Below are positions 18,129 to 45,383 of a stretch of 64,000 bases of DNA, in pieces. The position numbers and the translations under genes are program-made. The notes below the pieces were generated by a model that saw only the letters and a list, made by a program, of their open reading frames with translations, made no database searches and was not told the DNA's origin. Positions within the stretch are counted from its first letter, which is position 1. Each line of letters starts with the position of its first letter. This stretch comes from a bacterium (GTDB lineage Bacteria; Armatimonadota; Zipacnadia; Zipacnadales; UBA11051): assembly GCA_030604405.1 (NCBI GenBank), contig JAUVVY010000006.1, positions 78,589-142,588 on the forward strand. The letters run 5' to 3'.

Positions 18129-19163
18129 GTGTACTTCCCGGTAGCTGAAGCAACAATCGCACTCTGGTATTTAATCGGCATTGGTTTTGCGATAGGCGTA
18201 TGCGGCGGCTTTATGGGCATGGGGGGCGGCTGGATTCTGGTACCGGCGCTGATGGCACTGGGCGTCCGCGAAAATATCGCGATCGGTACCTCCCTGGCCC
18301 AGATGCTCGGTCATGCGATAGTCTCCACCTCCCGGCACTGGCAGTTCGGCAATGTGTCTATCAAGATCGCTCTGGTCATGATTCCAGGCACCGCGATCGG
18401 CATAGAGATCGGGGCAAGAATATTGGAGGCGCTGAAAGCACTCGGCGAGGCCCACGTAGAACACACCATCGGCGGGCTGTACGTAGTCCTGCTGTTGTCA
18501 CTGGCGATATTCGTGTATAGAGACGTCAGGAGGGCCTGGCGCAGAGCCGCCAAAGCCAACGCTGCCGAGCCCCGCGATGGCGGCACGGCAGCAGACGAAG
18601 AAAAGACCAGCCGGCTGGCTTTGTGGGCGCAAAGCCTCAAGCTCTGTCCGTGCATAAGCTGTTCGATTGCGCAGATTCAATCAATATCGGTGTGGGTAAT
18701 CTTCTTTTCGGCCATCGCCGCAGGGGTCCTTACGGGGTTGCTTGGCGTCGGCGGCGGGCTGGTACGCCTGCCAATGCTGATATATCTTATCGGCTGCCCG
18801 ACGACTGTAGCGGTCGGCACCGATCTTCTGGAAGTCATCATCTCCGGCAGCTACGGCACCTTCACCCACGCTCTCAAGGGCAACGTTGACCTGCTGATGG
18901 CCTTCTACATCTTTGTCGGCGCGGCGGGCGGTGCCCAGGTCGGTGCTTTCGCAACGCGCTATGTCAACGGCACGCAGATACGGGGAATCTTCGCCTTCGT
19001 CGCGCTCATAGCAGGCCTGTCGGTAATCGCTAACAGTTTCCTGAAGATGCAGACACTGGCGCTTGTTCTGATCGTGGGCGTTACGGCGCTCATGGCGCTG
19101 TTCATCATCGCCCTGCTGGTCATCGGCATCAAGCAAGAGGCGGCCGACACCCCGGGAGCCTAG
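18129..19163 (+). CDS. TauE/SafE family anion permease
   Basis: 344 residues starting at a GTG that immediately follows the preceding stop. Two homologous halves are visible, each with a glycine-rich loop: GGFMGMGGGWILVPAL in the first and GLLGVGGGLVRLPMLI in the second, the hallmark of TauE/SafE permeases, with about eight membrane helices and a charged cytosolic linker (residues ~135-175). The family exports or imports sulfite, sulfoacetate and other organosulfur anions. Sulfate release from sulfated glycans would fit the lyase-rich locus, but no sulfatase gene is present here, so substrate is open. It overlaps the convergent ecfT stop by 4 bp. Confidence 0.88.
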   Translation: MYFPVAEATIALWYLIGIGFAIGVCGGFMGMGGGWILVPALMALGVRENIAIGTSLAQMLGHAIVSTSRHWQFGNVSIKIALVMIPGTAIGIEIGARILEALKALGEAHVEHTIGGLYVVLLLSLAIFVYRDVRRAWRRAAKANAAEPRDGGTAADEEKTSRLALWAQSLKLCPCISCSIAQIQSISVWVIFFSAIAAGVLTGLLGVGGGLVRLPMLIYLIGCPTTVAVGTDLLEVIISGSYGTFTHALKGNVDLLMAFYIFVGAAGGAQVGAFATRYVNGTQIRGIFAFVALIAGLSVIANSFLKMQTLALVLIVGVTALMALFIIALLVIGIKQEAADTPGA

Positions 19164-19960
19164 ATCCTGGGCAGAAGCTCGCCGAAACCCTCCACTCGCA
19201 GCCATACGCTGGCCGCCGCCAGGCCGAGGACAAGCAGAAATGCCACGGCGTCGGCGCGGGTTACGGGAAACTCCCGTAGTTCGACGCGTTTTGCCCCTGC
19301 CATCAGCCCACGCGCCTCCAACGCCCGCGACAAATTGTCCGCCTGCCGCAAGGCATAGCCGAACACCGGCGCGGCCAAGCTCAGATACCGCCGCAGCCGC
19401 GTCAGCAGCCCTCCGCTGTCGAGGTCCAGGCCACGCGCGCGCTGGGCATCCTTGACCGTCTGCACCGTCGCCAGGAAGCTGGGAAGCAGCCGAAATGAAA
19501 GCGACAAAGCCACCGAAAGTGTGGCTGGCAGGCCGAGCTTGCGCAGGGCAAAGGTGAAGTCCTCCGGCCGCGTGGTGGTGATGAAGGTCAGCCCGAACAG
19601 CAGCAAAGACGCTATCCTGCAGCCCATCGCCAGCCCGTAGAGTACCGACTCCCTCGAAATCGTCACGGCACCCAGTTCCAGCAGCACGTGCGGCTCCTGC
19701 AAGTCCGCCAAGAACAGCGACCACATCAGTGTGCTCATCACGAACAATATCACCAGGAACCAGCCCAGACGGCGCAAGTTCGGGGCCCCGCGCGCCACTA
19801 ACAGCAGCAGCACGCTCAGCGCCAATACAACAGCCATCCACGCCGGGTGATTGAAAGCCAGAGCCGGCACGAATAGTATCCCCAGCCCCAGTACCTTGAC
19901 GACCGGGTGCAAGCGGTGCAGTGCGGTACTGGCTGCTATGAAAAGAAACTCTGTCTGCAT
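19160..19960 (-). CDS. ecfT: ECF transporter transmembrane component EcfT (CbiQ family)
   Basis: 266 residues from ATG 19960, which has GAGGG 7 nt upstream; a TTG two codons earlier is also in frame. About five membrane helices flank the long cytosolic coupling region, where the two Ala-Arg-Gly signatures are seen as AQRARGLDLD and ALEARGLMAG. These helices dock on the two ATPases and move the S component. It lies 60 bp downstream of the fused S-A-A' gene on the same strand, completing an ECF importer. Confidence 0.92.
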   Translation of the reverse strand: MQTEFLFIAASTALHRLHPVVKVLGLGILFVPALAFNHPAWMAVVLALSVLLLLVARGAPNLRRLGWFLVILFVMSTLMWSLFLADLQEPHVLLELGAVTISRESVLYGLAMGCRIASLLLFGLTFITTTRPEDFTFALRKLGLPATLSVALSLSFRLLPSFLATVQTVKDAQRARGLDLDSGGLLTRLRRYLSLAAPVFGYALRQADNLSRALEARGLMAGAKRVELREFPVTRADAVAFLLVLGLAAASVWLRVEGFGELLPRI

Positions 19961-20020
19961 CAGCAATCCCTCACTATACCAATATCACGTGGGCCGACTT
20001 CCAACTCCACAGCATGTCGT

Positions 20021-22938: not shown

Positions 22939-23946
22939 ATGATAATTGAGGCCACAGCGCCCTCGCGCATAGACCTTGCAGGAGGCACCCTCGATATTTT
23001 CCCGTTGTATCTGTTCGAGGAAGGCGGTCTGACCGTCAACCTGGCCATATCTGTCCACAGCCACGTGCGTCTGCATACCCGTGAGGATCAGCGGCTCTGC
23101 ATTACTTCGCACTGCACCGGCACCTCCGTGGAGGCGGCAAACGTGGAGGAACTGCCGCTGTATGGAGACCTCGACCTGCTGGTGCGCGTTGTCAAGTTCT
23201 ACAGGCCGCAGTGCGGGCTTGACGTTTATACCCGCAATGACGCTCCCCAGGGCTCCGGCCTGGGCGCCTCCTCATCGCTCTTGATCGCCCTCAGTGGTGC
23301 CCTCCGTTCCCTCAACGGTTCTGACACATCGGACATGGACTTCGCCCGCTACGGTGCGGACCTGGAAGCCCAGACCATCCGCATCCTCACCGGCAAGCAG
23401 GACTACTACTCGGCTATCTTCGGCGGTCTCAACGCCCTCTGGTTCGATGTGGGCGGCGATCGGGTTGAAAGCCTCTCACACAATGATGAGCTACTTGACG
23501 AACTGGAGCAGCGCTTGCTTCTGTTTTTCACCGGCGAGGCGCGCTTTTCCGCTGTCACCAACTGGGACATGCTTAAAATGTACATAGACCAAGACGCGAC
23601 GGCTCTACAAAGCATGAAGGCCATCAAGCGCACGGCGTTGGCAATGCGGGAGGCTTTCATCAATGCTGATCTGGACGCTTTCGCCGATTTGCTCAATGAG
23701 GAGTGGGAGAACCGCAAGCGCTTGGGCGAAGGCGTCACCACCGACCGCATCGAGGAGTTGATGGCCGCGGCGAAGGCGAACGGTGCTTTGGCCTCCCGCG
23801 TCTGTGGTGCCGGCGGAGGTGGCTGCATTAGCGTCTTCTGCAAGTCTGGAGTCCAGCAGTCAGTAATCTCGGCCCTCGAAAAAATAGGCGCTGAACACAT
23901 GCCCTACACCATTGACAGAGAAGGGCTGCGCGTATTGAAGAGCTAG
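22939..23946 (+). CDS. GHMP-family sugar kinase
   Basis: 335 residues; ATG with GGAGG 7 nt upstream. Family motifs are clear: N-terminal APSRIDLAGGTLDIFPLY, the ATP loop PQGSGLGASSSLL near residue 105, and the C-terminal glycine-rich RVCGAGGGGCISVF. The form SGLGASS and the DLAGGTLD start are those of the heptose-7-phosphate / L-fucose kinase branch rather than galactokinase. The protein phosphorylates a sugar in the cytoplasm. It heads the transporter-lyase island on the same strand. Confidence 0.88.
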   Translation: MIIEATAPSRIDLAGGTLDIFPLYLFEEGGLTVNLAISVHSHVRLHTREDQRLCITSHCTGTSVEAANVEELPLYGDLDLLVRVVKFYRPQCGLDVYTRNDAPQGSGLGASSSLLIALSGALRSLNGSDTSDMDFARYGADLEAQTIRILTGKQDYYSAIFGGLNALWFDVGGDRVESLSHNDELLDELEQRLLLFFTGEARFSAVTNWDMLKMYIDQDATALQSMKAIKRTALAMREAFINADLDAFADLLNEEWENRKRLGEGVTTDRIEELMAAAKANGALASRVCGAGGGGCISVFCKSGVQQSVISALEKIGAEHMPYTIDREGLRVLKS

Positions 23947-24064: not shown

Positions 24065-26011
24065 TTGACGTTTCGCGCTGTCATTATTGCAATACTCTTG
24101 TCCATCATCGCAGTTGCCTGGATGCACCAGGCCAGTTTGATCCAAGCGCCGGGCCTCTTCTGGGCACCGATTTATCTTCTCTCCGTACCACCAGTGCCTG
24201 CCGTTTTCTGCCTGATATTCCTCGTCGCACTGGTGCCGCTGACCATGAAGCTCTTCGGCAAGGCCCTGAGCAAGCGCGAGATGATCTTCATCTACATGGT
24301 CCTGGTCATCGCCATTCCGACGGTAAGTTGGGGCGTGATCGAATGTATGCTCCCGGCGGCCTCCACTGCGCTGTATTTCGCGACCCCGGACAATAACTTC
24401 GCGATGCTGACCGAGGCCATGCCACGGTGGTTTTACCCACATGATGCAGAAGTCGTCCGCACTATGTACGAGGGCAGCAGTGACGGCTCTGTACCCTGGA
24501 GCGCGTGGATCTATCCGCTCGCGATGTGGACGATTTTCATGACGATACTGTTCTTTACCACTTTGTGCGCATTGACGATGCTACGTAAGCAGTGGGTGGA
24601 GAACGAACGGCTGTGTTTCCCGCTGCTTTTCGTCCCCATGAGCATAGTGGAAAAGGAGGCCCCGGGCAGTCGAGCACCGTTCTTCCGCAACCCGCTGGTA
24701 TGGATTGCCATCGGCCTTGTGTTCTTGCATCACTGTCTCAACATCGCCCACGAGTACAACCCCGCGGTCATGGCTCTGACCAATCGCTATCACCTGGGCG
24801 CTCTTTTCACCGAATACCCGTGGACGGTGTATAGCCACCTGGCTATTTTCAATAACCCGCAGGTCATCGGGCTGGCATACTTCGTGCCACTTGACATCCT
24901 GTTTTCAGGCTGGTTCTTCCACCTCAGTCAGTCAACCCTGCGACTGCTGTCTGAGATATTTGGCATCTCCGCTGCTTGGGGCTTTCCGCACACGCATGCG
25001 CAGTCGGCGGGCGCCTACACGGGCATGTTCTTGATTCTGCTGTGGGTAGGCCGCCACGAGATCGCGACAATCTGGCGCAAAGCTCTCGGAGGGAACACAA
25101 GCATTGACGACTCTGCTGAGCCGATGTCTCACCGCGCAGCCCTTTTGGGCACTATCGGGGGCACGGCTGTCATCGTGATATGGGTCATCGCCATGGGGGT
25201 GTATCCTACCTATGCGGCCGCGTACTTTCTCATGGTCATCGGCTTTGCCGTGGTCTCTGCCCGCATCCGTGCGGAGGCCGGTATTCCCACAATGTGGGGC
25301 TATTTCGGGGGCCACGCCAGGATCCTGAAATACTTCGTTGGCTCCAGAGGCCTGATAGGGCAAGGCGATCTGCGCAACATCTCAGTATTGACCACCTTCG
25401 AATGGCTCAGCGAGGGCTATTTCGCCGGCCAGATGGGATACCAGATCGAGAACCAACGTCTGGCCGAGGAGGTCAAGCTCCATCCCCGCATCATGCCGCC
25501 GGTCATGATGATTACGTTCGTGCTGGGCTGCATCTTTGCTTACTACCTGATTCTGGGCACCCTATACAAGTACGGGTCCACGACCATCGCCGGCGGCACC
25601 AGAATGGGTGGGCCTGCTATCAGCATTCCTTACGGTCATTGGCAACAGACCTCGATGATGCTCGAATCTGAAGTCCTCCCAGATCCGAATCAAGCAATTG
25701 CGGTAGTCGCCGGCACGGCATTCACTATCCTCCTGGTGCTGGCGCGCTGGCGCTGGCTGCGCATTCCGCTGCACCCCATCGGCTATGTCACCTGCACGGG
25801 CTACGGCTACGGCCTGTGGGGGCCGTTCTTCGTGACGTGGGTGGTGAAGGCGATAGTCCACCGTCTCGGCGGCGTGCGCCTTTACCGCCAGCTCATGCCG
25901 TTCTTCCTGGGCCTCGCCTTCGGTGACCTGCTGGCTGACGGCATATCCTGGATTATAATGTCCCTCTTCGGCCCCGAGATACTGGCCGGCTACATGGTCC
26001 AGTTCGGATAA
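24065..26011 (+). CDS. Polytopic membrane protein, paralogue 1 of 3 (DUF6785/DUF6784-like)
   Basis: 648 residues from TTG 24065, placed 7 nt after AGGAGGG; an in-frame ATG at 24044 lies before this RBS. About 13-14 hydrophobic helices. Shared with the two paralogues are the N-terminal WMHQASLIQAPG and LLSVPPVPA, a soluble loop with WFYPHDAEV and YEGSSDGSVPW, the RIRAEAGIPTMWG block after the middle helices, and the C-terminal end RLYRQLMPFFLGLAFGDLL...GYMVQFG. I associate the pattern with the uncharacterised DUF6785/DUF6784 pair from memory only. The size and the C-terminal glycine-rich helix recall OPT-type transporters. Likely an importer for lyase products; unproven. Confidence 0.75.
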   Translation: MTFRAVIIAILLSIIAVAWMHQASLIQAPGLFWAPIYLLSVPPVPAVFCLIFLVALVPLTMKLFGKALSKREMIFIYMVLVIAIPTVSWGVIECMLPAASTALYFATPDNNFAMLTEAMPRWFYPHDAEVVRTMYEGSSDGSVPWSAWIYPLAMWTIFMTILFFTTLCALTMLRKQWVENERLCFPLLFVPMSIVEKEAPGSRAPFFRNPLVWIAIGLVFLHHCLNIAHEYNPAVMALTNRYHLGALFTEYPWTVYSHLAIFNNPQVIGLAYFVPLDILFSGWFFHLSQSTLRLLSEIFGISAAWGFPHTHAQSAGAYTGMFLILLWVGRHEIATIWRKALGGNTSIDDSAEPMSHRAALLGTIGGTAVIVIWVIAMGVYPTYAAAYFLMVIGFAVVSARIRAEAGIPTMWGYFGGHARILKYFVGSRGLIGQGDLRNISVLTTFEWLSEGYFAGQMGYQIENQRLAEEVKLHPRIMPPVMMITFVLGCIFAYYLILGTLYKYGSTTIAGGTRMGGPAISIPYGHWQQTSMMLESEVLPDPNQAIAVVAGTAFTILLVLARWRWLRIPLHPIGYVTCTGYGYGLWGPFFVTWVVKAIVHRLGGVRLYRQLMPFFLGLAFGDLLADGISWIIMSLFGPEILAGYMVQFG

Positions 26012-26211
26012 CACCCGACTCTCGACGCTTTAGAGCACGCGTAAGGCGCCCTGCCCTTACCGGCAGCGAGCACACGTTGATTTCTTCAAGAATGAGACTA
26101 TCGCAACACATCTTGACAGATTTCTCCCCCCCCTCAAGGAAGGCAGCGCGTTGATTATGGCGAAATGTCGAGACGCGTGGGACAAGCAAATATGAATACG
26201 GTGGAATCACG

Positions 26212-29200
26212 ATGATACTGAAAGCTATTCTGGTATTAGTTTTTGCTGTGGCAATTGTGGCCTGTGGGCGCGGGCAGTCCCTGGCAAAGACCGCCAGCCA
26301 CATTGTCACTGCGCAGATGCGCGCCAATGCTTTGGCCAATGTCGAGAAGTATGACTGGGCCAAGTCCCAGCAGCAGCAGGCGATAAACGCGGCTCAGAAG
26401 TACGTGGAGATGTCGGATGAAGAGCTGTGGCGGATGGTGCTGAGCCAGTGGGTGCCCCGCGAATTACATGTCAACAGGGGTTGCGGCTGCCCCAATTGCG
26501 GCGATGAGTTTTTCAAGATCAAAGAGTTCGGCTACCTCCGCTGGGAACATGACATCGAAAAGCACCCCTGGAAGCTGAAGTGCAAGAACTGCGGCACGCT
26601 TTTCCCCAGCAACGATTACGGGGCCTATTACGAATCCGGCCTTGACGGCCGTGGCGAATTTGATCCCGAAAAGGCCGACAAGAGCCTGCTGTTCAACCCT
26701 GACCATCCCGATCCCGAGGATCCGAACCACAGGAAATGGGTAGATGATGGGTTCGGTGCGAAATACGAAGACAACACTCTGGCTTTCGTTGCCCGCTGCG
26801 CGTACCTGCAGTGGCTGCCGAGCATCAGTGCGAGCCGTACCCTCGCCCGCGCTTATACTCTAACCGGCGAGCCGATCTACGCGCACAAAGCGGCCGTGCT
26901 GCTCGACCGCTATGCGGATGTTTATCCCAATATTGACTACTCCTTCATATCCGGACACGGCTCGTATCTCAATGGCAAGCAGTACGCCTGGAACATATCC
27001 GACGGCGGCAGCGGCAGGGGCATGATCCAGGGCTGCATCTGGGAAACCACTACCGCCAACCGCCTCTCCTATGCCTATGATGTCATCTATGAGCAGATGC
27101 TCAAAGACCAGGAGCTGGTGGAGTTCTGCGCGAAGATGAGGCAAGAGTACCCCGGCCTGGACGAAAAGCCTCACACCGGAGCCATCGCGCGTCACATTGA
27201 AGACAACCTTATCACACTGTTTTGCGAGGCAGTCATCGCTGGAAACATCCATGGCAACATCGGCTCCCACCAGAGAAGCATGGCGATGGCGGCTATCGCT
27301 CTGGATCGCCAGGGCAAGACCGAGCAATATCTTGACTGGCTCTTTCAACCCGATGGCGGAATGATACCCACACTTCTGACCGATCTGGTTTCCCGCGACG
27401 GCCCGTCCTTTGAGGCGACTACCGGCGGCTATGGCCTGTCGCCCGGTTCCCTCGTCCCCGTGGCCGACCTGCTGCAGGCCTACGAGCCCTACCAGAAACA
27501 CGACATGTATCGCGACTTTCCCAAGATGAAGCAGTTGTTTGTGGCCTGCCAAGCCTACCGTTGTCTGAACCAGGTCAAACCGAGTATCGGCGATGCCGGC
27601 AGCGCCCAAGCCTGGGGCGACAGTATGCACTCTATACCGATGCTCATCAGCGGCTTCAGAGCCTATGGCACCGAGGATATCGCCCGCGAGTTGTGGCACA
27701 CAGTTCGGTATGACCGAAAAAGGCTCGAGGCGCGCCTGAATATCCATGAAACAGATGAAGAACGGCAGGAGCTGCTAGAGCAGCTCTTGGTGCTGAAGCC
27801 GGAGCTGCCCATCCGCCTCGAAAGCGCCAATAACAGCGGCTATGGCCTCGCCATACTGCAGAGCTCCGAGGGCGCTGAGCGCGGAAGTACTCGCGGCCGA
27901 TGTGCCTACATCTCTTATGGCCGGACCTGCGGGAGCCACCCCCACAAAGACCGGCTCAACTTCGGTATTTTTGCCAAGCACATGGTCATGAACCCCGACC
28001 TGGGCTATCCGCAATACCCGATGGGCACCTCGCGCAAGCGCGGCGCATGGACCAACCACACGATGAGCCACAACACCGTCACAGTCAATGACCGCAAGCA
28101 GAGCTGCAACTGGGGTGGGAAGACCGAGCTGTTCATTGGCGGCGACCCGGCCCGCATCGCCATAGTCAACGGTGGACCGCCGGTGTATGAGAACCTGCGA
28201 ACCTACAAACGCGCTGTCAGTCTCATTGATGTCTCAGAAGACGATAGCTACGTGGTGGACGTGTTCTGGGTCCGCGGCGGGACCAACCACCGCATGGTAA
28301 ACAATGGCCCCGGGCGCGAAGTTACCCACCAGAGCCTGCAACTGGCAAAGCAGGCGACGGGTACCTTTGCGGGGCCGAACGTCGAATTCAAGGCACCAAT
28401 AAAGGAGCGCGACGAGGGCTGCGCGGCGTTTTCCTGGCTGCGCAATGTCGAGCGCGGCAATGCGACCTCGGAAAGCTGCTGGATAGACTGGGATGCAGTC
28501 CGTCCGGACGGCACGATGCAGGAAGGCCGCGACCCGCACCTGCGCATGCACTGCCTGTCCTCCGTGGACGAGATTGCAATTGCCATCGGCGAGCCGCCTC
28601 ACCAAAAGCACAACCCCGATGCGTACCTCCGCTACGTCGTCCGTAGCCGCCTGGGCGAGGACCTCGAGAGCCAGTTCGTAACGGTATTGGAGCCGTACGA
28701 GTCGGAGCCGTTCATCGCTTCCGCAGAGCCGCTGGAGCTTGACGCTCACGATGGTGAGGGCTTTGCCGCCGCAGTCCAGATTGACCTGGCCGATGGCCGC
28801 ACCGACATCGTCATCATCGCGGAGAATCCTTGCCAGGTCGAGGCAGCGGGCCTGAGTCTAGACGGCCAGATGGCCTTCATCCGCTTGCGCGACGGCAAAG
28901 TCGAGGCCGCCAAGCTCGTGCGCGGCACGAAACTGCAATACAGAGACTATCAACTAACTACCGAGCGCGGCGAGATCACCGGTAAGCTGGCTGGCTTCGA
29001 CGTCTCCGACTGGAGAGACAACCTGCTCAAGGTTGAGTCTTCGGTGCTGCTCGAGGGCGTGGCTGCCGGTGATCTGATCGGCCAATACATCATCGTCAAG
29101 AACTCCGAGCGCTCGTGCGGTAGCTATCCGATCAAGGATATTCGCGAAAACGGCACCGTCATCTCGCTGGGCGATAAGACGCTCGTAGAGCGCTTCGTTG

Positions 29201-29289
29201 ATCCGCAGGATTATTCCAAAGGCGTCATTTACAGCGTAGCCGAGGGCGACGAGTTCACGATACCACTAAGCGTCAGCTTAAAGCTGTGA
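26212..29289 (+). CDS. Exported heparinase II/III-type lyase with Cys4 zinc-ribbon-like motif
   Basis: 1025 residues from ATG 26212. The N-terminus is a signal sequence ending IVAC at residue 18, which fits a lipobox, so the enzyme may be membrane-anchored. A helical linker is followed by a Cys4 motif (C93, C96, C124, C127; HP at 118-119; LFPSND after the last Cys). Residues ~190-540 form the helical toroid; near residue 576 comes GSHPHKDRLNFGIFAK and then NHTMSHNTVTVND, the His-rich active-site region of heparinase II/III lyases; the rest is beta-sandwich. Uronate-containing glycan cleavage is likely. It lies between membrane paralogues 1 and 2. Confidence 0.82.
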   Translation: MILKAILVLVFAVAIVACGRGQSLAKTASHIVTAQMRANALANVEKYDWAKSQQQQAINAAQKYVEMSDEELWRMVLSQWVPRELHVNRGCGCPNCGDEFFKIKEFGYLRWEHDIEKHPWKLKCKNCGTLFPSNDYGAYYESGLDGRGEFDPEKADKSLLFNPDHPDPEDPNHRKWVDDGFGAKYEDNTLAFVARCAYLQWLPSISASRTLARAYTLTGEPIYAHKAAVLLDRYADVYPNIDYSFISGHGSYLNGKQYAWNISDGGSGRGMIQGCIWETTTANRLSYAYDVIYEQMLKDQELVEFCAKMRQEYPGLDEKPHTGAIARHIEDNLITLFCEAVIAGNIHGNIGSHQRSMAMAAIALDRQGKTEQYLDWLFQPDGGMIPTLLTDLVSRDGPSFEATTGGYGLSPGSLVPVADLLQAYEPYQKHDMYRDFPKMKQLFVACQAYRCLNQVKPSIGDAGSAQAWGDSMHSIPMLISGFRAYGTEDIARELWHTVRYDRKRLEARLNIHETDEERQELLEQLLVLKPELPIRLESANNSGYGLAILQSSEGAERGSTRGRCAYISYGRTCGSHPHKDRLNFGIFAKHMVMNPDLGYPQYPMGTSRKRGAWTNHTMSHNTVTVNDRKQSCNWGGKTELFIGGDPARIAIVNGGPPVYENLRTYKRAVSLIDVSEDDSYVVDVFWVRGGTNHRMVNNGPGREVTHQSLQLAKQATGTFAGPNVEFKAPIKERDEGCAAFSWLRNVERGNATSESCWIDWDAVRPDGTMQEGRDPHLRMHCLSSVDEIAIAIGEPPHQKHNPDAYLRYVVRSRLGEDLESQFVTVLEPYESEPFIASAEPLELDAHDGEGFAAAVQIDLADGRTDIVIIAENPCQVEAAGLSLDGQMAFIRLRDGKVEAAKLVRGTKLQYRDYQLTTERGEITGKLAGFDVSDWRDNLLKVESSVLLEGVAAGDLIGQYIIVKNSERSCGSYPIKDIRENGTVISLGDKTLVERFVDPQDYSKGVIYSVAEGDEFTIPLSVSLKL

Positions 29290-29293
29290 ACAC

Positions 29294-29377
29294 AAATTGG
29301 GGACAGTCACCTGTTTCTTGCCATTTCTCCAAGTCCACTCCCGCTGCTCTGCAGAAATAGGTGACTGTCCCCAATTT
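29294..29377. repeat. 84-bp inverted-repeat element, best pair of the GGGGACAG family
   Basis: Arms of 24 bp (29294-29317 and 29354-29377), core AAATTGGGGACAGTCACC, match at 23 of 24 positions in inverted orientation around a 36-bp centre. It begins 5 bp after the lyase stop and ends 25 bp before the start of membrane paralogue 2. It has the form of a non-autonomous mobile element or a REP-like hairpin; no transposase is present. Confidence 0.85.
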
Positions 29378-29402
29378 CGCATTGAAGGGTCAGGTACCTG
29401 GT

Positions 29403-31352
29403 GTGACGCTACGCGCCATCATCATCGCTGCAATACTCTCAGTAATATCTGTGTTCTGGATGCACCAGGCCAGTCTCGTACAGGCGCCGGGCATTATCTA
29501 TGCCCCCGTCTATCTACTCTCAGTGCCACCCGTACCGGCCATCTTTTCGCTGATGCTTCTGGTTGCTCTGGTGCCTCTTGCCACGCGCTTTTTTCGCAGC
29601 GCTCTATCCAAGAAAGAACTCCTGCTCGTCTATGCGATCCTGGTCATCATCATTCCCCCGGTCACATTTGGCATCGTCGAACTGCTGCTGCCCTGGACCA
29701 CCGCCGGCATGTACCTGGCCGCTCCGGATAACAACAACCGGCAACTGGCTGAATCACTGCCGCAGTGGTTCTACCCACACGACGAAGAAGTCATCCGCAC
29801 GATGTTCGAGGGCAGCGATGATGGCTCAGTGCCCTGGAAGCCGTGGCTGTACCCGCTTTCAATGTGGACCATCTGGATGACTTTGGTCTTCGTCACATTC
29901 CTGTGCCTGATGGCGCTTTTCCACAAGCAATGGGTACAGCACGAGCGCCTGCGCTACCCGCTGCTGTTCATTCCGCTCAGTGTCGTCGAACAGCAGGCGC
30001 CGGGGAGCCATGTTGCCTTTTTCCGCAATCCACTCGTGTGGCTCGGCATAGGCATTGTCATCATTCATCATATCTTCAATATCGCCCACGCGCACAACCC
30101 CGCCGTCATTGCTCTTACGGACCGCTACAACCTGGGCCGCGCCATCTTTACCGAATATCCCTGGACCGCCTTCCGCGGGCTGACCGTGTTTCATCGGCCG
30201 CAGGTAATCGGCTTCGGATACTTCGTGCCGGTTGACATTCTATTTTCCGGATGGTTCTTCTTCGTGATGCAATCAGGGCTTCGCTTTATGTCCGATGTTT
30301 TCGGCATAAGCGCCACTCCCGGCTTTCCCTTCCACATGTCTCAGTCCGCCGGCGGCTATGTAGCTATGATGTTTGTCATATTCTGGATCGGCCGTCATCA
30401 GTTGGCTCGTATCGTCCGCAAGGCGCTTCACGGCGATCCCGAGGTTGATGACTCTGACGAGCCACTGCCATACCGCTGGGCGCTGTTGGGTGGTGTCGGC
30501 GGATTTGTGGCGCTAATTATCTGGAGCCGCGCTATCGGGGTGCCCGTGGGCTATGCGATTGCCTTTTTCGTAATATTCATTGCCTGCGGCTTTGTATTCG
30601 CGCGCATGCGGACTGAAGCGGGCGTTCCGACCATGTGGGGACCCGCGCCCCAATACCTTGAATCTGTCTTCGAGTTCACTGGCACTCGCTCTCTCATCGC
30701 CGGCGGCAATGTCGCTCCTCTGGCGATTCTCAGAGTATTCAACTGGGTTTCGCGCGGCTTTCTCGGCGCGATGTCGGCCTACCATGCGGAGAACTTCCAG
30801 CTCGCCGACCAAGCCGGGATCAAGCCACGTGTGATGCCGGCCGTTATGATCGTCGCTTTCGTTGTGGGGTGCCTTCTGGCCTATTATTTCGTTCTCGGTG
30901 CCTACTACAAATACGGCGCAACCGTGCTTCACGGCGGCACCACGATGGGCGGCTACAACGTCCTGGTGGCGGTGCGCTCGTGGCGCTCGGCTTCGAGCGC
31001 CGTTGCTGTCCCGGCCGACCCACATCCCCAGAGAATGATGGCCGCACTTGGCGGTGCGGTGCTGGTTATAGCCATGGTGGTGGCGCGCTGGCGCTGGCTG
31101 CGCGTGCCCTTCCATCCGATCGGTTACGTAAGCTGCATCTGGTACGGCTATTGCCTGTGGTTCCCGTTCATGGCGACGTGGGCGATCAAGCTCGTAGTTC
31201 ATCGGCTCGGCGGCGCGCGGCTGTACCGCCAACTGATGCCATTCTTCCTGGGGTTGGCTTTCGGGGATTTGCTCGCCGGCGGCATATCGTGGATTATAAT
31301 GGCGATTTTCGGCCCGGATATCTTCGCCGGCTACATGGTTCAATTCGGTTAG
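29403..31352 (+). CDS. Polytopic membrane protein, paralogue 2 of 3
   Basis: 649 residues from GTG 29403, chosen because its first codons (xTG-ACG-CT) align with the starts of the other two paralogues; an upstream GTG at 29361 lies inside the inverted-repeat arm and is rejected. All shared blocks are present: FWMHQASLVQAPG, LLSVPPVPAIF, WFYPHDEEV, RMRTEAGVPTMWG and the C-terminal GYMVQFG. A short acidic cytosolic linker (VDDSDEPLPYR) precedes the second helical half. As for paralogue 1, transport of glycan products is the best guess. Confidence 0.75.
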   Translation: MTLRAIIIAAILSVISVFWMHQASLVQAPGIIYAPVYLLSVPPVPAIFSLMLLVALVPLATRFFRSALSKKELLLVYAILVIIIPPVTFGIVELLLPWTTAGMYLAAPDNNNRQLAESLPQWFYPHDEEVIRTMFEGSDDGSVPWKPWLYPLSMWTIWMTLVFVTFLCLMALFHKQWVQHERLRYPLLFIPLSVVEQQAPGSHVAFFRNPLVWLGIGIVIIHHIFNIAHAHNPAVIALTDRYNLGRAIFTEYPWTAFRGLTVFHRPQVIGFGYFVPVDILFSGWFFFVMQSGLRFMSDVFGISATPGFPFHMSQSAGGYVAMMFVIFWIGRHQLARIVRKALHGDPEVDDSDEPLPYRWALLGGVGGFVALIIWSRAIGVPVGYAIAFFVIFIACGFVFARMRTEAGVPTMWGPAPQYLESVFEFTGTRSLIAGGNVAPLAILRVFNWVSRGFLGAMSAYHAENFQLADQAGIKPRVMPAVMIVAFVVGCLLAYYFVLGAYYKYGATVLHGGTTMGGYNVLVAVRSWRSASSAVAVPADPHPQRMMAALGGAVLVIAMVVARWRWLRVPFHPIGYVSCIWYGYCLWFPFMATWAIKLVVHRLGGARLYRQLMPFFLGLAFGDLLAGGISWIIMAIFGPDIFAGYMVQFG

Positions 31353-31354
31353 TG

Positions 31355-31441
31355 AAAAGGGGACAGAGCCTTTTTTCCGCCACAGAAATGCGTGAACCCG
31401 CACGCTTTCATACTCGTCGAAAAAAGGCGCTGTCCGCCCTT
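31355..31441. repeat. 87-bp inverted-repeat element of the GGGGACAG family
   Basis: AAAAGGGGACAGAGCCTTTT plus TTC (31355-31377) and GAAAAAAGGCGCTGTCCGCC plus CTT (31419-31441), about 19 of 23 positions paired. It starts 3 bp after the stop of membrane paralogue 2 and ends 8 bp before the stop of the convergent gene, so its T-tracts may also serve as a terminator. Confidence 0.8.
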
Positions 31442-31448
31442 ATTCTCC

Positions 31449-32864
31449 CTATGACTCGATACGCTCCACATGCAGATCGTCAAACCAGCATGTCCCGGCG
31501 CCGTCCTGCATGAGCGCGATGCAGATGGCATTAGAGTCCGCGGGATGCCGTCCGTGCAGTTCGACGGAGACGGGCGTCCAGTCATTCGTACCGCTGAGCA
31601 GACGGGAATGGACACAGGCGTAGATCTGTTCCTGGTTATAGCGCTGCCAGCGGAGTGAGATGCCAGCGCCGCGGCCGGTAACGTCGTCGGTTCTGACGTA
31701 TCCGCTCACGCGGAATCCGATATAGTCAGGCCATGGCTCCATGAAACCGCCCTCGCCCTCGTAGATCATCCGCCATTGTGAAAGGCCCGGCGTCGGTCTG
31801 TCTATCTTGAGGGAGTAGTTATCCGAACGCCCGAAGTTCTGTTCGTACGAAAGCCCCTCCCCCGCTGGCATCCACGACCACGCATCAGTCGTGCCGGGTG
31901 GCGGCTGGCTAAGTGCGCAGGGCTTCTCAAAGCTCGTCTTGCGCTCGTACAGGGGCAGCTCTTTCATGCCCATACACTCGATTTCCGGCACCGGGTCGGC
32001 GGCCTCGATCAAGCGGCGCGCCCTGTCGTCGCGGCAAAGGAAGATCCGGAACTCTCTGAGAATGGGATCGCATAAGGCTTCACGTGGAGTATCGGCCACA
32101 AGGTGGATGTCGTATCCCCAGTTGCAGACACCGATGTGGCTCTGTCTGGCGGTTTCGCCAACAAATTCGATCGCCACGTTGGCCCCCGCATCGAAGACGG
32201 GCAGCAGTAGTCCACCCGGCCGCACCGGCGTAGAGAAGCCATGCGCGGTTATGCCGGCATGGTTCAGCGGTATTTTCTGGACGCTGGCGTCGGCTCGCTC
32301 GCAAAGGATGTGGGTATAGGGTCGTTTTTCCCACATCCCGGGGAACTCGACGGCGGGCGCTGGAATGTCCACATACCACGGGTCGGAATACTCGAGCCGG
32401 ACGGAGGCATCGTGCTCCAGAGCCTCAGAACTGTGAACGCGCAGATTACACTCAAAGTCATAGACATAACTCTCGGTGGTCGCGTCGTAGGAACACGTCA
32501 CCACATGCCGCGCAGTGGCTACGCCGCCCCGGTCGCGCGTCCGCAGAACCAGACGGAGCCTGTCCGTGCCATGGCCTTCCACCTCCAGACTCACTAGCTC
32601 CTCCGTCAGTATGGCGCGCGTTAGTTTCCAGTACAGAGGCACGCCGGAAATCAGCGGACGGCCGCCCGGCTTGAGCTTGAGATACCGCAGATTGAGGGGA
32701 CGCCGAATCAGGTTGAAATAGCGCAGCATCTGCTCCGGCTGGTCAATCGTCCTGCGCTCCAACAAAGCGATCGGCTCGTCACCATCGTAGATCCACTGAC
32801 TCCCACAACACTCGCCCCCATGCGTCTTGAAGTAAAACCTCGCCACGTGTGATATCTTCAACAA
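31449..32864 (-). CDS. Unknown protein with C-terminal carbohydrate-binding-like jelly roll
   Basis: Up to 471 residues. AGGAGG directly abuts the TTG at 32864, so translation more likely starts slightly downstream; no ATG is available. The first ~300 residues are beta-rich with EYSDPWYVDIPAPAVEFPG and match nothing I know. The last ~150 residues, with NYSLKIDRPTPGLSQWRMIY, FRVSGYVRTDDVTGRGAG and GTCWFDDLHVERIE, read as a CBM-type beta-sandwich in which 'W.DD..VE' is the final strand. No signal peptide. It is the only minus-strand gene in the island. It may bind or process oligosaccharides. Confidence 0.6.
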   Translation of the reverse strand: MLKISHVARFYFKTHGGECCGSQWIYDGDEPIALLERRTIDQPEQMLRYFNLIRRPLNLRYLKLKPGGRPLISGVPLYWKLTRAILTEELVSLEVEGHGTDRLRLVLRTRDRGGVATARHVVTCSYDATTESYVYDFECNLRVHSSEALEHDASVRLEYSDPWYVDIPAPAVEFPGMWEKRPYTHILCERADASVQKIPLNHAGITAHGFSTPVRPGGLLLPVFDAGANVAIEFVGETARQSHIGVCNWGYDIHLVADTPREALCDPILREFRIFLCRDDRARRLIEAADPVPEIECMGMKELPLYERKTSFEKPCALSQPPPGTTDAWSWMPAGEGLSYEQNFGRSDNYSLKIDRPTPGLSQWRMIYEGEGGFMEPWPDYIGFRVSGYVRTDDVTGRGAGISLRWQRYNQEQIYACVHSRLLSGTNDWTPVSVELHGRHPADSNAICIALMQDGAGTCWFDDLHVERIES

Positions 32865-32960
32865 CCTCCTGTCTTCGTTCGCGATCTCTGGTACGGACTT
32901 GACCTGCCTGTAGTATTGCTTCAGCGGCGCAATGATTCCTTGCCCTGAAGATAGAAAAGC

Positions 32961-32987
32961 GAAAAAAAGGCGCTGTCCCCTTTTTTG
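32961..32987. repeat. Single arm of the GGGGACAG inverted-repeat family
   Basis: GAAAAAAAGGCGCTGTCCCC followed by a T-run, in the gap between the jelly-roll protein and membrane paralogue 3. A weak partner, AAAGGGGCAGG at 33068, overlaps the RBS region of paralogue 3. Confidence 0.55.
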
Positions 32988-33086
32988 TCCTCTTCTTGCG
33001 CAGGAAGGTTGCCCGTCCGCCCATAGCGAACCATCTTCTCATCGCGCCAAATCCCCGCTGTGCAATCAAAGGGGCAGGTGTTTGTA

Positions 33087-35054
33087 TTGACGCTCCGGGC
33101 CGTGATACTCGCTATCATACTGTCGGTTGCTGCGATATTCTGGATGCACCAGGCCAGCCTGGTGCAAGCGCCGGGACTCATCTATGCGCCAGTGTACCTG
33201 CTTTCGGTCCCGCCCGTGCCGGCCATCTTCTGCCTGCTGCTCCTGGTCGCTCTCGTACCTCTGACCAGGCGCCTCCGTGGCGGCCCCTTCACCAAGAAGG
33301 AACTCCTGTTCATCTTCATGGTCCTGGTCATCGCAATTCCGCCGGTGACCTTCGGCGTCCTCGAGATGCTGGTGCCCTGGATTAGCGCCCCGGTCTATTT
33401 TGCCGCTCCCGATAACAACTACATGCTTCTCGCCGACGCCATGCCGCAGTGGTTTTACCCGCACGACTACGAAGTGATCCGCACGATGTACGAGGGCAGT
33501 GACGACGGTCGGGTGCCGTGGGGCCCCTGGCTTTATCCGCTGGGGATGTGGACGCTGTTCATGACGCTTTTCGTCTTCACCGGCATGTGCCTGGTCACGC
33601 TCTTCCGCAAGCAGTGGGTCGAAAACGAGCGGCTGCGCTATCCGCTGCTGTTCATACCGCTGAGCATCGTCGAGAAGCAAGCGCCCGGGAGCAGAGCGCC
33701 ATTCTTCCGCAATCCGCTGGTCTGGATCGCCATGGCTATCGTTTTCATCCACCACGCTCTGAATGTCGCGCACTCCTATAACCCAGCGGTGATGGCCCTG
33801 ATGGACCGTTCCTACTGGGCATCCGCAGTTTTCACGGAGTATCCCTGGAACCCCTACGGCGGCTATATGGGGTTCTTTCACCGCCCGCAGGTAATCGGTC
33901 TTGCCTACTTCGTGCCCCTGGACATACTCTTTTCGGGCTGGTTTTTCTACCTCATGCAGCCCACTCTGATTGTACTGTCGAACATCTTCGGCATCACCGC
34001 CGCGCCGGGCTTCCCCTTCAGGAGTGAGCAGGTCACCGGCGGGTACTTTGCCATGGTCTTCATCATCTTCTGGATCGGCCGATATGAGATCGCCAAAATC
34101 ATTCGCAACGCCCTGGGAAGGGGCACTAGCGCTCAGGGCGACACGACGGACGATTCCGACGAGCCGCTTCCTCATCGGGTCGCAGTTTTCGGCACGATCG
34201 GGGGCTTTGTCGGTTTGCTGATCTGGTCTCATGTCCTGCACGTGCCGGTCGCCTATTCGTTTGTCTTCTTCTTCCTGCTGATGGGCGTGCCTCTGGTCTA
34301 TTCGCGCATCCGCGCCGAGGCGGGCATTCCCACGATGTGGGGCACTCCCCCCAGCCCACTGGACTCAATGATGTATGCCATCGGCACCCGGCCGCTGGTA
34401 CGCGGCCCCAACCTCGACAAGTTCGCCGTCCTGAGCACCTTCGCGTGGATGGCGCGCGGCTATTTCGGCCCACAGATCGGCTATCATGCGGAGAACGAAA
34501 AGCTCGCCGAGGAAGCGGAAATCAATCCCCGCATCATGCCGCCGGTGATCATGATTACCTTCGTGCTGGCCTGCATTGTGAGCTTCTACTTCATCCTCAC
34601 CGACTATTACCGCTTCGGCGCAACCGTGCTATACGGCGGCACCACAATGGGCGGCTACAACGTCCGCTGCGCCATAACTCAGTGGACGCGCAGCTCAGGC
34701 GTTGTGGAGTTGCCCAGCGGCGCCCTGACGCCTCAGGTCATAGGCATGGTCGGCGGCGCGCTGCTCACTTTCGCGCTGGTGATTATGCGCTGGGCCTGGC
34801 TCAAGGTGCCGTTTCATCCCATCGGTTACGTAACCTGCGCCAGTTACGGGTACTGCCTGTGGTGGTCATTCTTTGTGACGTGGTTGATGAAGGGCGTCGT
34901 CCACCGTCTGGGTGGCGCGCGGCTTTACCGGCAGCTTATGCCATTTTTCCTGGGGCTGGCCTTTGGCGATTTGCTTGCCGGGGGCATATCGTGGATTGCG
35001 ATGAAGGCTTTCGGGCCGGACATCCTCGGCGGCTACATGGTCCAGTTCGGCTAA
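33087..35054 (+). CDS. Polytopic membrane protein, paralogue 3 of 3
   Basis: 655 residues from TTG 33087, aligned with the other two starts; the RBS is poor (AGG 7 nt upstream, AGGGG further). It carries FWMHQASLVQAPG, LLSVPPVPAIF, WFYPHDYEV, a longer acidic linker (TTDDSDEPLPHR), RIRAEAGIPTMWG and the C-terminal block ending GYMVQFG. Residue identity between paralogues looks high across the helices and low in the linker and in the loop after YGGTTMGGYN, where substrate preference may differ. Three copies in 11 kb indicate local duplication. Confidence 0.75.
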   Translation: MTLRAVILAIILSVAAIFWMHQASLVQAPGLIYAPVYLLSVPPVPAIFCLLLLVALVPLTRRLRGGPFTKKELLFIFMVLVIAIPPVTFGVLEMLVPWISAPVYFAAPDNNYMLLADAMPQWFYPHDYEVIRTMYEGSDDGRVPWGPWLYPLGMWTLFMTLFVFTGMCLVTLFRKQWVENERLRYPLLFIPLSIVEKQAPGSRAPFFRNPLVWIAMAIVFIHHALNVAHSYNPAVMALMDRSYWASAVFTEYPWNPYGGYMGFFHRPQVIGLAYFVPLDILFSGWFFYLMQPTLIVLSNIFGITAAPGFPFRSEQVTGGYFAMVFIIFWIGRYEIAKIIRNALGRGTSAQGDTTDDSDEPLPHRVAVFGTIGGFVGLLIWSHVLHVPVAYSFVFFFLLMGVPLVYSRIRAEAGIPTMWGTPPSPLDSMMYAIGTRPLVRGPNLDKFAVLSTFAWMARGYFGPQIGYHAENEKLAEEAEINPRIMPPVIMITFVLACIVSFYFILTDYYRFGATVLYGGTTMGGYNVRCAITQWTRSSGVVELPSGALTPQVIGMVGGALLTFALVIMRWAWLKVPFHPIGYVTCASYGYCLWWSFFVTWLMKGVVHRLGGARLYRQLMPFFLGLAFGDLLAGGISWIAMKAFGPDILGGYMVQFG

Positions 35055-35058
35055 AAAT

Positions 35059-35082
35059 AAAAAAGGAAACAAACCCTTTTTC
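35059..35082. repeat. Diverged arm of the GGGGACAG family at the RHS fragment end
   Basis: AAAAAAGGAAACAAACCCTT plus TTTC lies 4 bp after the stop of membrane paralogue 3 and interrupts the 3' end of the RHS fragment on the other strand. Confidence 0.45.
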
Positions 35083-35094
35083 AGGGGCCACATA

Positions 35095-35406
35095 ATTCAC
35101 CGGGTTATTCCTCACATAAAGATACCGATGCACACTCGGAGGCTCTTGGACCAATCCGCGGAGGGGGTCCATTGTCGTAAAGCGACCCACTGTCGGCATG
35201 TAGTAGGCGGTTTTGGTATTGTAGGTGCCGTCCGGGGCGTAGTTGCCGTTGCAGCCGGCAGTGCCGGCCCCCGATACTGCCCAACCGGTGTGAGCCGCCA
35301 TAGTCGCGCGGTTGCCCACATTATCGTACGTAAACTGCATCTCATAGGTCTTGGCCCCGCTGCGCTGCTCGCGGGTGAGTTGGTTGGCATTGTCGTAGGT
35401 CCACAC
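35095..35406 (-). pseudogene. RHS repeat-associated core fragment
   Basis: The minus strand reads VWTYDNANQLTREQRSG, FTYDNVGNRATM, and, after a short gap, the RHS core ending GRFTTMDPLRGL ... HRYLYVRNNPVNYVAP, that is YD repeats followed by the last part of the conserved core. There is no N-terminal part and no toxin tip: the frame runs into the repeat arm at 35059-35082 just after the core. An in-frame stop lies just upstream of the YD repeat. It is a remnant of a larger polymorphic-toxin-type gene. Confidence 0.8.
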
Positions 35407-35486: not shown

Positions 35487-36680
35487 CTATTCCTCGTAGG
35501 TAGCGTACTCTCTCTTGATTTCTTCGGGGAATGACCATACTTTGCGCCACTCCCCGCTCTCCACATTCACGCTCCACAGCGCCGCCCCAGCGCCGCACAG
35601 CACCGCAGTGGTCCCAGGCATCCACGTGATGGGCCTTATCACCCAGTCACCCGGGGCCTCAAGTTCCTTGACGTCTTTCTCCTCGCGGTCTATGAGGTAT
35701 AGGATACCGCGCAGGGAGCCTGGGTCGTCGCTAGCTAACCTGCAAACTAGGTATTTCATATCGCCCGACCAGAGCGTCTGAACGGGTATCCCTGGAATTT
35801 CGAAGGTTTCCGGAGAAGAACCAGATCGTGCAACAGGGCGAATAAGGAGCCGAATCTGCTCGCCATGGTATTGCTCCCACACTGCCCACCGTCCGTCAGG
35901 GGATATAACAGGCCTAGCTCTGTATTGGCTTGGGCCATCAACAGGCGTCCAGCGGCGAGTCTCGATGTCGAATAGTCTGAAGTTCCCGGCGTCACCGGGG
36001 GCAACGTACTCCCAGGCCATCAAGTATCTTCCCCCTGTCCCCTCGCAGAGGCTGTAGTCACTGCCCGGTGGGTGAAGTTCCAGCAGTGGCTTCGACGAAC
36101 TGGTAGCTATATCGTATTCGTAGACCTCTTCTACGCCGGGCCACTGCCCCCGGGTGTACAGGGCTTTTTGGCCGCTCATAGCTGTTACCAAGTCACTGCC
36201 CCTGCACGACCTGCGCACTTGACACAGTTCCGGCACCGGGTGAAGGAGCCATTCTTGGTCAGGCGTGCGTACCAGTGCATAGCTATCCCATAGGCTCAGA
36301 GGATCTTGTGTGAATTCGAGTCCGTGAATCTCGAAACGCGATCCTTTCGGGCACCATTCACCTGCCTCTCGATAAACGAGTAGCGTGGTGCCATCTCCGA
36401 TCCAGCCAGCCACGTGCCACAACCACCCTTCAGTATGGAGCGACTGCCACAATCGTTCGCCGCGGGACGCGTCTATGATCCATACCGAATATACCAAAGA
36501 ATCCGACGTCTGCTCGAACTGCTGTGTACGTAACGCCAGTAAGTTACCGTCCCGGCTAACGCTAACGCTCGCCACACAGGGGTACACCAACCAGCGACCA
36601 GACTTATCAGCCGCGGGGGCTATCTGTACGAGCATACACATTACGAGTGCCATTAGGGAGCGCCTGATCACTGGCGACAT
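35487..36680 (-). CDS. Exported beta-propeller-like protein coupled to an RHS tip
   Basis: 397 residues from ATG 36680. Residues 1-23 are a signal peptide (RRSLMALVMCMLVQIAPAAD). The rest has repeated beta segments of the WD40/TolB type: VSVSRDGNLLALRT, SPDGRWAVWEQY and ITWMPGTTAVLCGAG. Its start codon overlaps the stop of the upstream RHS reading frame by 13 nt, so the two are translationally coupled. Partner genes of RHS tips are often immunity proteins, but a secreted propeller of this size is unusual for that role. Function unknown. Confidence 0.68.
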   Translation of the reverse strand: MSPVIRRSLMALVMCMLVQIAPAADKSGRWLVYPCVASVSVSRDGNLLALRTQQFEQTSDSLVYSVWIIDASRGERLWQSLHTEGWLWHVAGWIGDGTTLLVYREAGEWCPKGSRFEIHGLEFTQDPLSLWDSYALVRTPDQEWLLHPVPELCQVRRSCRGSDLVTAMSGQKALYTRGQWPGVEEVYEYDIATSSSKPLLELHPPGSDYSLCEGTGGRYLMAWEYVAPGDAGNFRLFDIETRRWTPVDGPSQYRARPVISPDGRWAVWEQYHGEQIRLLIRPVARSGSSPETFEIPGIPVQTLWSGDMKYLVCRLASDDPGSLRGILYLIDREEKDVKELEAPGDWVIRPITWMPGTTAVLCGAGAALWSVNVESGEWRKVWSFPEEIKREYATYEE

Positions 36681-37627
36681 GCTCTGTTCCTTTCCTTATC
36701 TTTCTGGTGTCGAATCGACTCACAAATCGTCGAGCAGTCCCCGTACTTGTAACCAAGCGCCTCACAACATGGAATACACTTCTGTGTGAAGTAATGGCCA
36801 GGTCCAGGGCATCCGACGCAGTCGCCGAAATGCTTCGGATCGACACACTTGCCTCTCCTCCCATAAACGTCGTCCATTATTTTCCTTAGCTCGTCCAGTG
36901 TTTCAGCCGCCTTGCATGCGGCCTGACAAGAGAGCCGTGCGAGCGGGGTAGGGACTAACCTGCACAACTGCTTACACAGCCATGTTGGAAACAGCCCGGC
37001 AGCATCCGTATGGGTGACAGGTCTATTGCCCACGTACAGATACCGATGCAAGCTCATCGGATCCTGGGGTCCGCCAAGCAGGGGATCCATGCTGATGAAT
37101 CGGCCCACTGTGGCCATGTAGTAGCGGGCTTGCATGAAGTAGAGGGCGGCGGTGGGGTCGTGATGGACGCCGAAGGCTCCCACATACTTATAAGGATTAG
37201 TCACGTTCTGAGTACTCGACTTGATCTGGCCGAAGGCCTCGTAGCGGTAAGAGTTTTGCGTGTTCTCGCTGCTGTCAACGACCTCGGTCACGCTTCCCAG
37301 GCCATCGAAGAGGTAATAGTAGCTATTTGTGCGCTTCATCGAGATCAGGTCATACATCAGTCCCCCGCCTTCGTGCGTGTAGCTGGCGACGGTGGTATCC
37401 TGCGCAGGCCGCTCCAGCATCACCTTGTCCATATCATAGAGATACTTGATTGTACCGGAACTGTCCACCTTGCTCAGCCGCTTCCCTGCTCCGTCATAGG
37501 TGAAGGTGGTGGCGCTGCTGTCCGAGTAGGTAATCAGCGTGAGGCGGTTCTCGTGGTCGTAGGTGTTAGTGGTCGTCCCGGCGGCAACTTGCGTGGTGCT
37601 CAGGCTGCCATTGTTATCATACGTTAT
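36668..37627 (-). pseudogene. RHS core with Cys-rich C-terminal tip, 5'-truncated
   Basis: The reading frame continues YD repeats (ITYDNNGSLSTTQVA, NTYDHENRLTLITY, FTYDGAGKRLSKVD), then the RHS core YYLFDGLGSVTEVVD, YRYEAFGQIKSS and GRFISMDPLLGGPQDP ... YLYVGNRPVTHTDAAGL, then a ~100-residue tip with 13 cysteines. It has lost everything upstream: similarity begins exactly at the stop codon of the zinc-ribbon gene on the same strand. The tip has no family I recognise; the cysteines in CXXC-like spacing suggest metal binding or disulfides. Without a start and delivery domain it is probably not functional as it stands. Confidence 0.78.
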
Positions 37628-38331
37628 TCGCTGTAGTGCAGGATTCTGCGGCAGTTTTCGCATCTGACCAGCTTCTTGCCCTTCTCCAACTCCTCCAGGA
37701 GCATGACCGAAATGCTCACCCGGCAGCCGCTGCAAAGACTCCCGTTGACGGCGACCACAGCCAGCCCGCCGCTCTTCTCCCTGATATTCTCGTAGTCCGC
37801 CAGTAGCTTTTCATCCAGCTTTTCGACGATGGCCGTCCGCTGCTGCTGAGCATCCGCAATCGCGGCCTCAAGCTCTGCCGAAACGCGCTCGAAGTTCCCT
37901 ACCGTGGCATCCAGTTCCTTTGCCAGGCGCGCTACTGTCTCGCGCTGTTGTTCGACCTTCCTGCTCTCCTGCTCGGACTTGTCGTAAAGCGCCAGCAAAA
38001 CGTCCTCGAGCTTATCTTTGCGGCGCTGCAGCTCCTCGAGCTTCTTTTCGAGCGATGCCAACTCCTTGGGGTCGGAAATGGCGCCGCCGTACGCCTGCGA
38101 CCACTTTTGCGCGCGTTCCTCTTCGGTGCTCTCCAGCTCCAACTCCTTGTCCAACTGCTGCGAATTCGTCTGCTTCAGGGCCGTTTCCATCTCCGCCAAC
38201 TCAGCGCGCTGCTGCTCCAGTTCTGCGCGCTTGCCTGAGCCGTCGTCCAGCCCTGCCAGGCGCTTGCTGGCATCATCTATAGTGCTATCTATCTGCTGCA
38301 GCCCGAATAACAGGTCGAACTGCTCTTTCAT
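37624..38331 (-). CDS. C4-type zinc-ribbon coiled-coil protein
   Basis: 235 residues from ATG 38331. Residues ~1-175 are a continuous coiled coil rich in Glu, Gln, Lys and Leu. Residues ~195-235 form the zinc ribbon with CSGC and, after ~22 residues, CENC, ending RILHYSE; this layout defines the zf-RING_7/DUF164 family, found near genes for RNA processing and cell division in many bacteria. Role is not settled in the family. The first two repeats of an RHS fragment begin directly at its stop codon. It is divergent from the FmdB-type gene across the CIRCE region. Confidence 0.88.
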   Translation of the reverse strand: MKEQFDLLFGLQQIDSTIDDASKRLAGLDDGSGKRAELEQQRAELAEMETALKQTNSQQLDKELELESTEEERAQKWSQAYGGAISDPKELASLEKKLEELQRRKDKLEDVLLALYDKSEQESRKVEQQRETVARLAKELDATVGNFERVSAELEAAIADAQQQRTAIVEKLDEKLLADYENIREKSGGLAVVAVNGSLCSGCRVSISVMLLEELEKGKKLVRCENCRRILHYSE

Positions 38332-45323: not shown

Positions 45324-45383
45324 GACCCACGGCTGCAACGCGCCCTCAACTAAATGCGCCTTATCTGCTATAATTACCCCCGA

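Follow-up and report, generated by a model that had tools for sequence, protein, structure and literature searches.

Three paralogous membrane proteins beside a polysaccharide lyase in Zipacnadia represent an OPT-like family expanded in Armatimonadota

How do uncultured, lyase-rich anaerobes take up the small products that their exported enzymes release? This question is raised by a locus within a 64,000-nucleotide stretch of DNA (hereafter, the window, meaning the whole stretch analyzed) from a bacterium of the phylum Armatimonadota (Zipacnadia; Zipacnadales; UBA11051; assembly GCA_030604405.1, contig JAUVVY010000006.1, positions 78,589 to 142,588 of the forward strand). The genome is a metagenome-assembled genome of the Zipacnadia/WS1 type, as its relatives in protein searches bear these names, and the candidate class Zipacnadia has been described (PMC10290634). 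In the window, three large paralogous membrane proteins (paralogues 1 to 3) accompany an exported polysaccharide lyase and a GHMP sugar kinase, and all of these genes were found at the places and on the strands given by the original prediction (Table 1). That prediction regarded the three proteins as the missing importers for the products of the lyase and suggested a comparison with OPT. Our analysis favors the importer role and the comparison with OPT, on the basis of fold, profile comparison with its control, and the scarcity of ABC permeases, and does not favor lyase products as the cargo.

The explanation that we consider likely is that proteins composed of the domains DUF6785 and DUF6784 form a branch that diverged within the OPT superfamily and multiplied in Armatimonadota, where its members serve generally to import small degradation products. 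Exported hydrolases and lyases would release such products, and an OPT-like, elevator-type secondary transporter, probably coupled to a cation, would carry them across the inner membrane. The trio in the window would have arisen long ago, when one subfamily expanded in tandem next to an ECF transporter, and the GHMP kinase and the exported lyase would have joined this locus in the present lineage. The finding is wider than the window, as it would concern a phylum-wide expansion within the OPT superfamily that has not been described before.

All three paralogues match DUF6785 (PF20581) end to end and then DUF6784 (PF20580), and both matches exceed the curated cut-offs; for PF20581, the scores are 372 to 386 bits against a cut-off of 25. 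The window proteins are full-length members that do not differ from other members of this family, which has no described function, and a search of a literature library found no paper naming either domain. In genome-wide tests, which here are protein-family searches, DUF6785 was detected in 124 of 151 genomes sampled from Armatimonadota and in none of 14 well-known control genomes. Every one of the 41 genomes from the class of the window carries it; the median copy number is 18, and the top counts are at least about 30. The window's own genome has 13 copies.

The OPT superfamily was implicated by structure prediction. An AlphaFold (AF2) model of paralogue 3, based on an 86-sequence alignment, has a predicted local distance difference test score (pLDDT) of 92.4 and a predicted template-modelling score (pTM) of 0.93. 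When this model was compared with the PDB by using Foldseek, the only significant matches were to barley Yellow Stripe 1 (HvYS1) structures 7wst and 7wsr (E = 1.9e-9 and 8.1e-9, probability 1.0), with template-modelling (TM) scores of 0.62-0.70 (TMt 0.67-0.70) and an alignment that spans nearly the whole chain. The next PDB matches, including every other listed transporter, have TM scores near 0.1, and a viral structure library contained no significant match. The predicted fold is of the YS1 type. We regard the match as specific because a DALI search by the authors of the HvYS1 structure, who describe an elevator with inverted repeats and proton coupling, yielded no homologue (PMC9691689). The window proteins resemble the OPT family (TC 2.A.67), and HvYS1 of its yellow-stripe-like (YSL) clade, in model fold, in size (~650 amino acids) and in being many-helix polytopic proteins, whereas they differ in their DUF6784 C-terminal domain and in the tens of copies per genome that their family can reach.

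Profile comparison points in the same direction. By using hhalign, DUF6785 was aligned with OPT-like proteins of the phylum, a side of the comparison consisting of only three sequences, with a probability of 93.8% over 456 collinear columns; a negative control, in which DUF6785 was compared with an unrelated APC amino-acid permease, gave 0.1%. In this alignment, the conserved ERLxFPL, which contains E184 in paralogue 3, is paired with SDVERLPFPL. The latter motif is conserved in a second OPT-like Armatimonadota group (loci L136, L138 and L140) that is separate from DUF6785, and one checked member of that group is a weak Pfam OPT match. Moreover, a six-frame search placed five DUF6785 loci above the cut-off of the Pfam OPT model. 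In HvYS1, the core-domain residues D446, D490 and D494 are used for proton coupling. Conserved polar residues in the DUF6785 family (E184, Q318, R335, R410, E414, H580 and K605) are candidate functional counterparts of these Asp residues, as judged from sequence conservation.

Several observations weigh against the proposed assignment and role. The fold match involves one protein, HvYS1, at 13% identity, the window paralogues have no Pfam OPT (PF03169) match at E 0.01, and two of the five relatives above the OPT cut-off are not listed as OPT by hmmscan at E 1e-4. About 12 MFS genes in the genome represent alternative importers. Sequence cannot distinguish import from export, and the inward direction is one that we infer. 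Finally, the peptidase counts presented below are post hoc, one set being only nominally significant (p 0.019), and the linkage tests are uncorrected. Direct searches of PDB sequences with single proteins and with profiles also returned nothing credible. Because the window proteins lack a Pfam OPT match and the matches of their relatives are partly unconfirmed, we assign DUF6785-DUF6784 to the OPT superfamily as a divergent branch ("OPT-like") and not to PF03169.

The importer repertoire of the genome bears on the proposed role. PF00528 is the permease family of ABC importers for sugars, peptides and many other substrates. The window's genome, which is 97% complete, has one PF00528 gene, as well as two SSF genes. 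Its uptake repertoire is unusual, in that 60 heparinase-type genes compare with this one PF00528 gene. Given their predicted fold and profile similarity, DUF6785-DUF6784 proteins are very probably transporters, presumably ion-coupled, and a "missing importer" role for the 13 copies is plausible because they compare with a single PF00528 gene.

The expectation that no ABC importer would be present was borne out for sugar-type importers: a Pfam scan of ten proteins in the island and its flanks detected no SusCD, TRAP, MFS or sugar ABC proteins, although no genome-wide SusCD or TRAP search was made. It failed for ABC-type importers as a whole, since an ECF importer adjoins the trio on the minus strand at 19160-22594. 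The ECF genes are located upstream of the kinase and paralogue 1, are divergently oriented, and encode a vitamin-type importer, not a sugar importer.

Table 1. Features of the locus, in window coordinates (ORF, open reading frame)
Feature	Position	Strand	Basis
Putative ECF transporter T component	19160..19960	-	position and membrane-protein sequence; conserved in L019, L020
ECF transporter S-A-A' fusion (QueT-like S and two ABC ATPases), 857 aa	20021..22594	-	PF06177, PF00005 x2
GHMP sugar kinase, HddA/fucokinase-like	22939..23946	+	PF00288/PF08544
Paralogue 1, DUF6785-DUF6784 OPT-like membrane protein	24065..26011 (ORF open from ATG 24044)	+	PF20581 E 2.4e-115, PF20580 E 9.7e-23
Exported polysaccharide lyase, (alpha/alpha)n toroid and beta-sheet class	26212..29289	+	PF07940 29.3 bits; model; Foldseek
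25-nt inverted repeat, GGTGACTGTCCCC arms, between lyase and paralogue 2	29294..29377		
Paralogue 2, DUF6785-DUF6784 OPT-like membrane protein	29403..31352 (ORF open from GTG 29361)	+	PF20581 E 3.5e-111
Orphan predicted protein, 465 aa, between paralogues 2 and 3	31449..32846	-	codon-use gene call
Paralogue 3, DUF6785-DUF6784 OPT-like membrane protein	33078..35054 (ORF open from GTG 33060)	+	PF20581 E 5.1e-111

What the transporters might carry is suggested in part by the partners of other subfamilies. It is possible, in our tentative view, that the whole DUF6785 family, including the trio, imports short peptides. The fungal and plant PT clade of the OPT family imports short peptides. In one DUF6785 clade, eight of nine members are followed 31-122 bp downstream, on the same strand, by a gene for an M28-FtsX fusion of ~1600 amino acids, and this operon is kept over several families. 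Fusions of M28 with a MacB/FtsX permease occur at loci L010, L069-L071, L073, L074, L077 and L079. In another clade, TldD/TldE genes precede DUF6785; of seven genomes inspected one gene at a time, three have such genes next to DUF6785 (P 0.003 by chance, post hoc and without correction). Also, an Amidohydro_3 protein of the N-acyl-D-amino-acid-deacylase type is encoded immediately after a subfamily member in L023, and the genome, with its one PF00528 gene, lacks a set of ABC importers of the Opp/Dpp type.

For the M28- and TldD-linked subfamilies, peptides are the best-supported substrate. However, the trio in the window has no adjacent peptidase, and many DUF6785 copies adjoin glycoside hydrolases or sulfatases. 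Single copies, for example, are found beside GH43, GH2, GH38, a GH63-like enzyme, a sialidase-like protein, sulfatases or an SSF symporter. Peptidases account for 6 of 30 immediate operonic neighbors, compared with 2 of 27 in controls; this enrichment is not significant, so the argument rests on conserved linkage. An association with M81/MlrC in Poribacteria was dropped, because the genes are on opposite strands. For the trio itself, we favor peptides marginally over small uronate products of the lyase, neither being more likely than not.

The uronate alternative derives from the neighboring lyase. According to this hypothesis, the trio takes up unsaturated uronate mono- or oligosaccharides that the adjacent lyase releases, each paralogue being tuned to a different product. 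The enzyme matches Hepar_II_III_C above the cut-off of 24 bits, and its model (pLDDT 86.7) has a PL40 ulvan lyase as its best Foldseek match (E 4.7e-22), followed by PL17 alginate lyases and heparinases. This gene is therefore predicted, from its modelled fold, to encode a lyase of the uronate class. It shares the fold (toroid and beta-sheet) and the Hepar_II_III_C domain of heparinase II/III-type and PL17/PL40 lyases, but is <20% identical to solved lyases, is ~1000 amino acids long, and has an N-terminal four-cysteine motif. Residues N349, H576, H578, Y599 and H620, candidates for the catalytic Asn/His/Tyr/His set of heparinase II/III-type lyases, are invariant in 24 homologues at the sequence level. 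The four cysteines (C93, C96, C124 and C127) are nearly invariant in the lyase and the same number of homologues; they precede the toroid and possibly form a zinc site.

Same-strand adjacency with short gaps, an upstream GHMP sugar kinase, and the near absence of ABC importers are consistent with uptake of lyase products. Furthermore, loci of a sister subfamily include Zn-dehydrogenases and sulfatases, and one more DUF6785 copy of the same genome, a distant one, also comes after a homologue of the lyase (L016). As in a Bacteroidetes polysaccharide utilization locus, an exported lyase and a kinase are clustered with membrane transporters; the window differs in that SusC and SusD are lacking, the transporters are OPT-like, and the linkage is not conserved. 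Transporter-lyase pairing is conserved only in the Zipacnadia metagenome-assembled genome L019, apart from the paralogous pair in L016. The kinase scores 165 bits against the NCBIfam HddA model, well under the 600-bit cut-off.

Proximity and neighborhood counts nevertheless make this hypothesis doubtful. A heparinase-type gene lies within 5 kb of two of nine DUF6785 loci, compared with 1.66 expected (P 0.49). Among 30 loci with this lyase, only that of the window has DUF6785 in its flanks, which reach ~1.5 kb. Neighbor sets were drawn from ~97 DUF6785 genes, with random windows of the same genomes as background, and glycan enzymes beside DUF6785 were not more common than in those windows: the operonic share is 10/30 versus 7/27 in controls (p 0.58), and sulfatases number 10/233 versus 3/120. 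In a related genome (L020), the orthologue of paralogue 1 is present with neither lyase nor kinase, and we know of no OPT member that transports sugars. The proposal of an importer for lyase products thus found no backing in this co-occurrence survey. A lyase-specific importer as a family-wide rule was rejected on these proximity and neighborhood counts, as was enrichment of any glycan enzyme above background. Because the genome has a very high heparinase-type background, the lyase adjacency alone is ordinary for so lyase-rich a genome.

A further possibility is that the adjacency is incidental, the lyase having landed between unrelated duplicates of transporters in a region that is mobile and rich in repeats. 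Copies of this lyase are scattered in the genome (at least 21 matches), hairpin repeats and RHS remnants surround the genes, and in L024 two DUF6785 genes are directly adjacent with nothing in between. We consider this explanation unlikely. The gene order (ECF genes, GHMP kinase, paralogue 1, lyase, paralogue 2) is kept in L019, a second species whose protein is 94% identical, and the L016 pair is a second instance of the association. Because the arrangement recurs in L019, the locus is not an assembly accident. In L020, paralogue 1 is kept beside ECF genes, and the ECF fusion remains next to this paralogue in both L019 and L020. Comparison of L019, L020 and L024 therefore suggests that the kinase and lyase are variable additions.

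The three paralogues are 56-62% identical pairwise and form one clade in the family tree. Their orthologues in related genomes are closer, with identities of 94% for paralogue 1 (L019), 72% for paralogue 2 (L024) and 93.5% for paralogue 3 (L017). Since each paralogue has its own orthologue (72-94%), the duplications predate these species, and none of the three copies has been lost.

Uptake of metal chelates in the manner of yellow-stripe-like proteins is very improbable: the solved structure closest to the model is that of HvYS1, which transports Fe(III)-phytosiderophore, and bacterial OPTs occur in the YSL clade (PMC12687453), but no other OPT-family structure is among the matches, so that the match does not discriminate between substrates, recurrent DUF6785 neighbors include no metallophore or metal genes, and dozens of copies per genome are difficult to explain by metal uptake.

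Some additional features of the locus were noted. The start codons of the paralogues are uncertain by a few codons; an xTG-ACG start, giving M-T-(F/L)-R-A, is possible in all three. The orphan between paralogues 2 and 3 has an open frame with coding-like codon use, matches nothing in Pfam or NCBIfam, and lacks a homologue among the loci examined; its PDB matches are weak only, to human KIAA0319-like (E 0.0036). Intergenic hairpin repeats with GGGGACAG/CTGTCCCC cores, which resemble repetitive extragenic palindromic (REP) elements, are located at 29294-29377, 31361-31435 and ~32966-33000. C-terminal remnants of RHS/YD-repeat proteins occur at 34936-35406, directly after paralogue 3, and at 36668-37663 and 45354-45719.

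A bolder proposal, which we hold to be distinctly unlikely, is that this polymer-degrading phylum has largely swapped ABC sugar and peptide importers for a massively expanded, undescribed OPT branch, some members of which, the trio among them, transport acids or sugars derived from glycans. If it is true, these compounds are a substrate class not known for the OPT fold. Under the explanation that we prefer, namely a divergent OPT-superfamily branch of general importers, a family without an assigned function, present in most genomes of the phylum at up to tens of copies, is tied to a superfamily with a known elevator mechanism. This would provide a testable answer to how lyase-rich uncultured anaerobes, which in this genome have almost no ABC-importer permeases, take up released products, and would add a large bacterial expansion to the OPT biology of plants and fungi.

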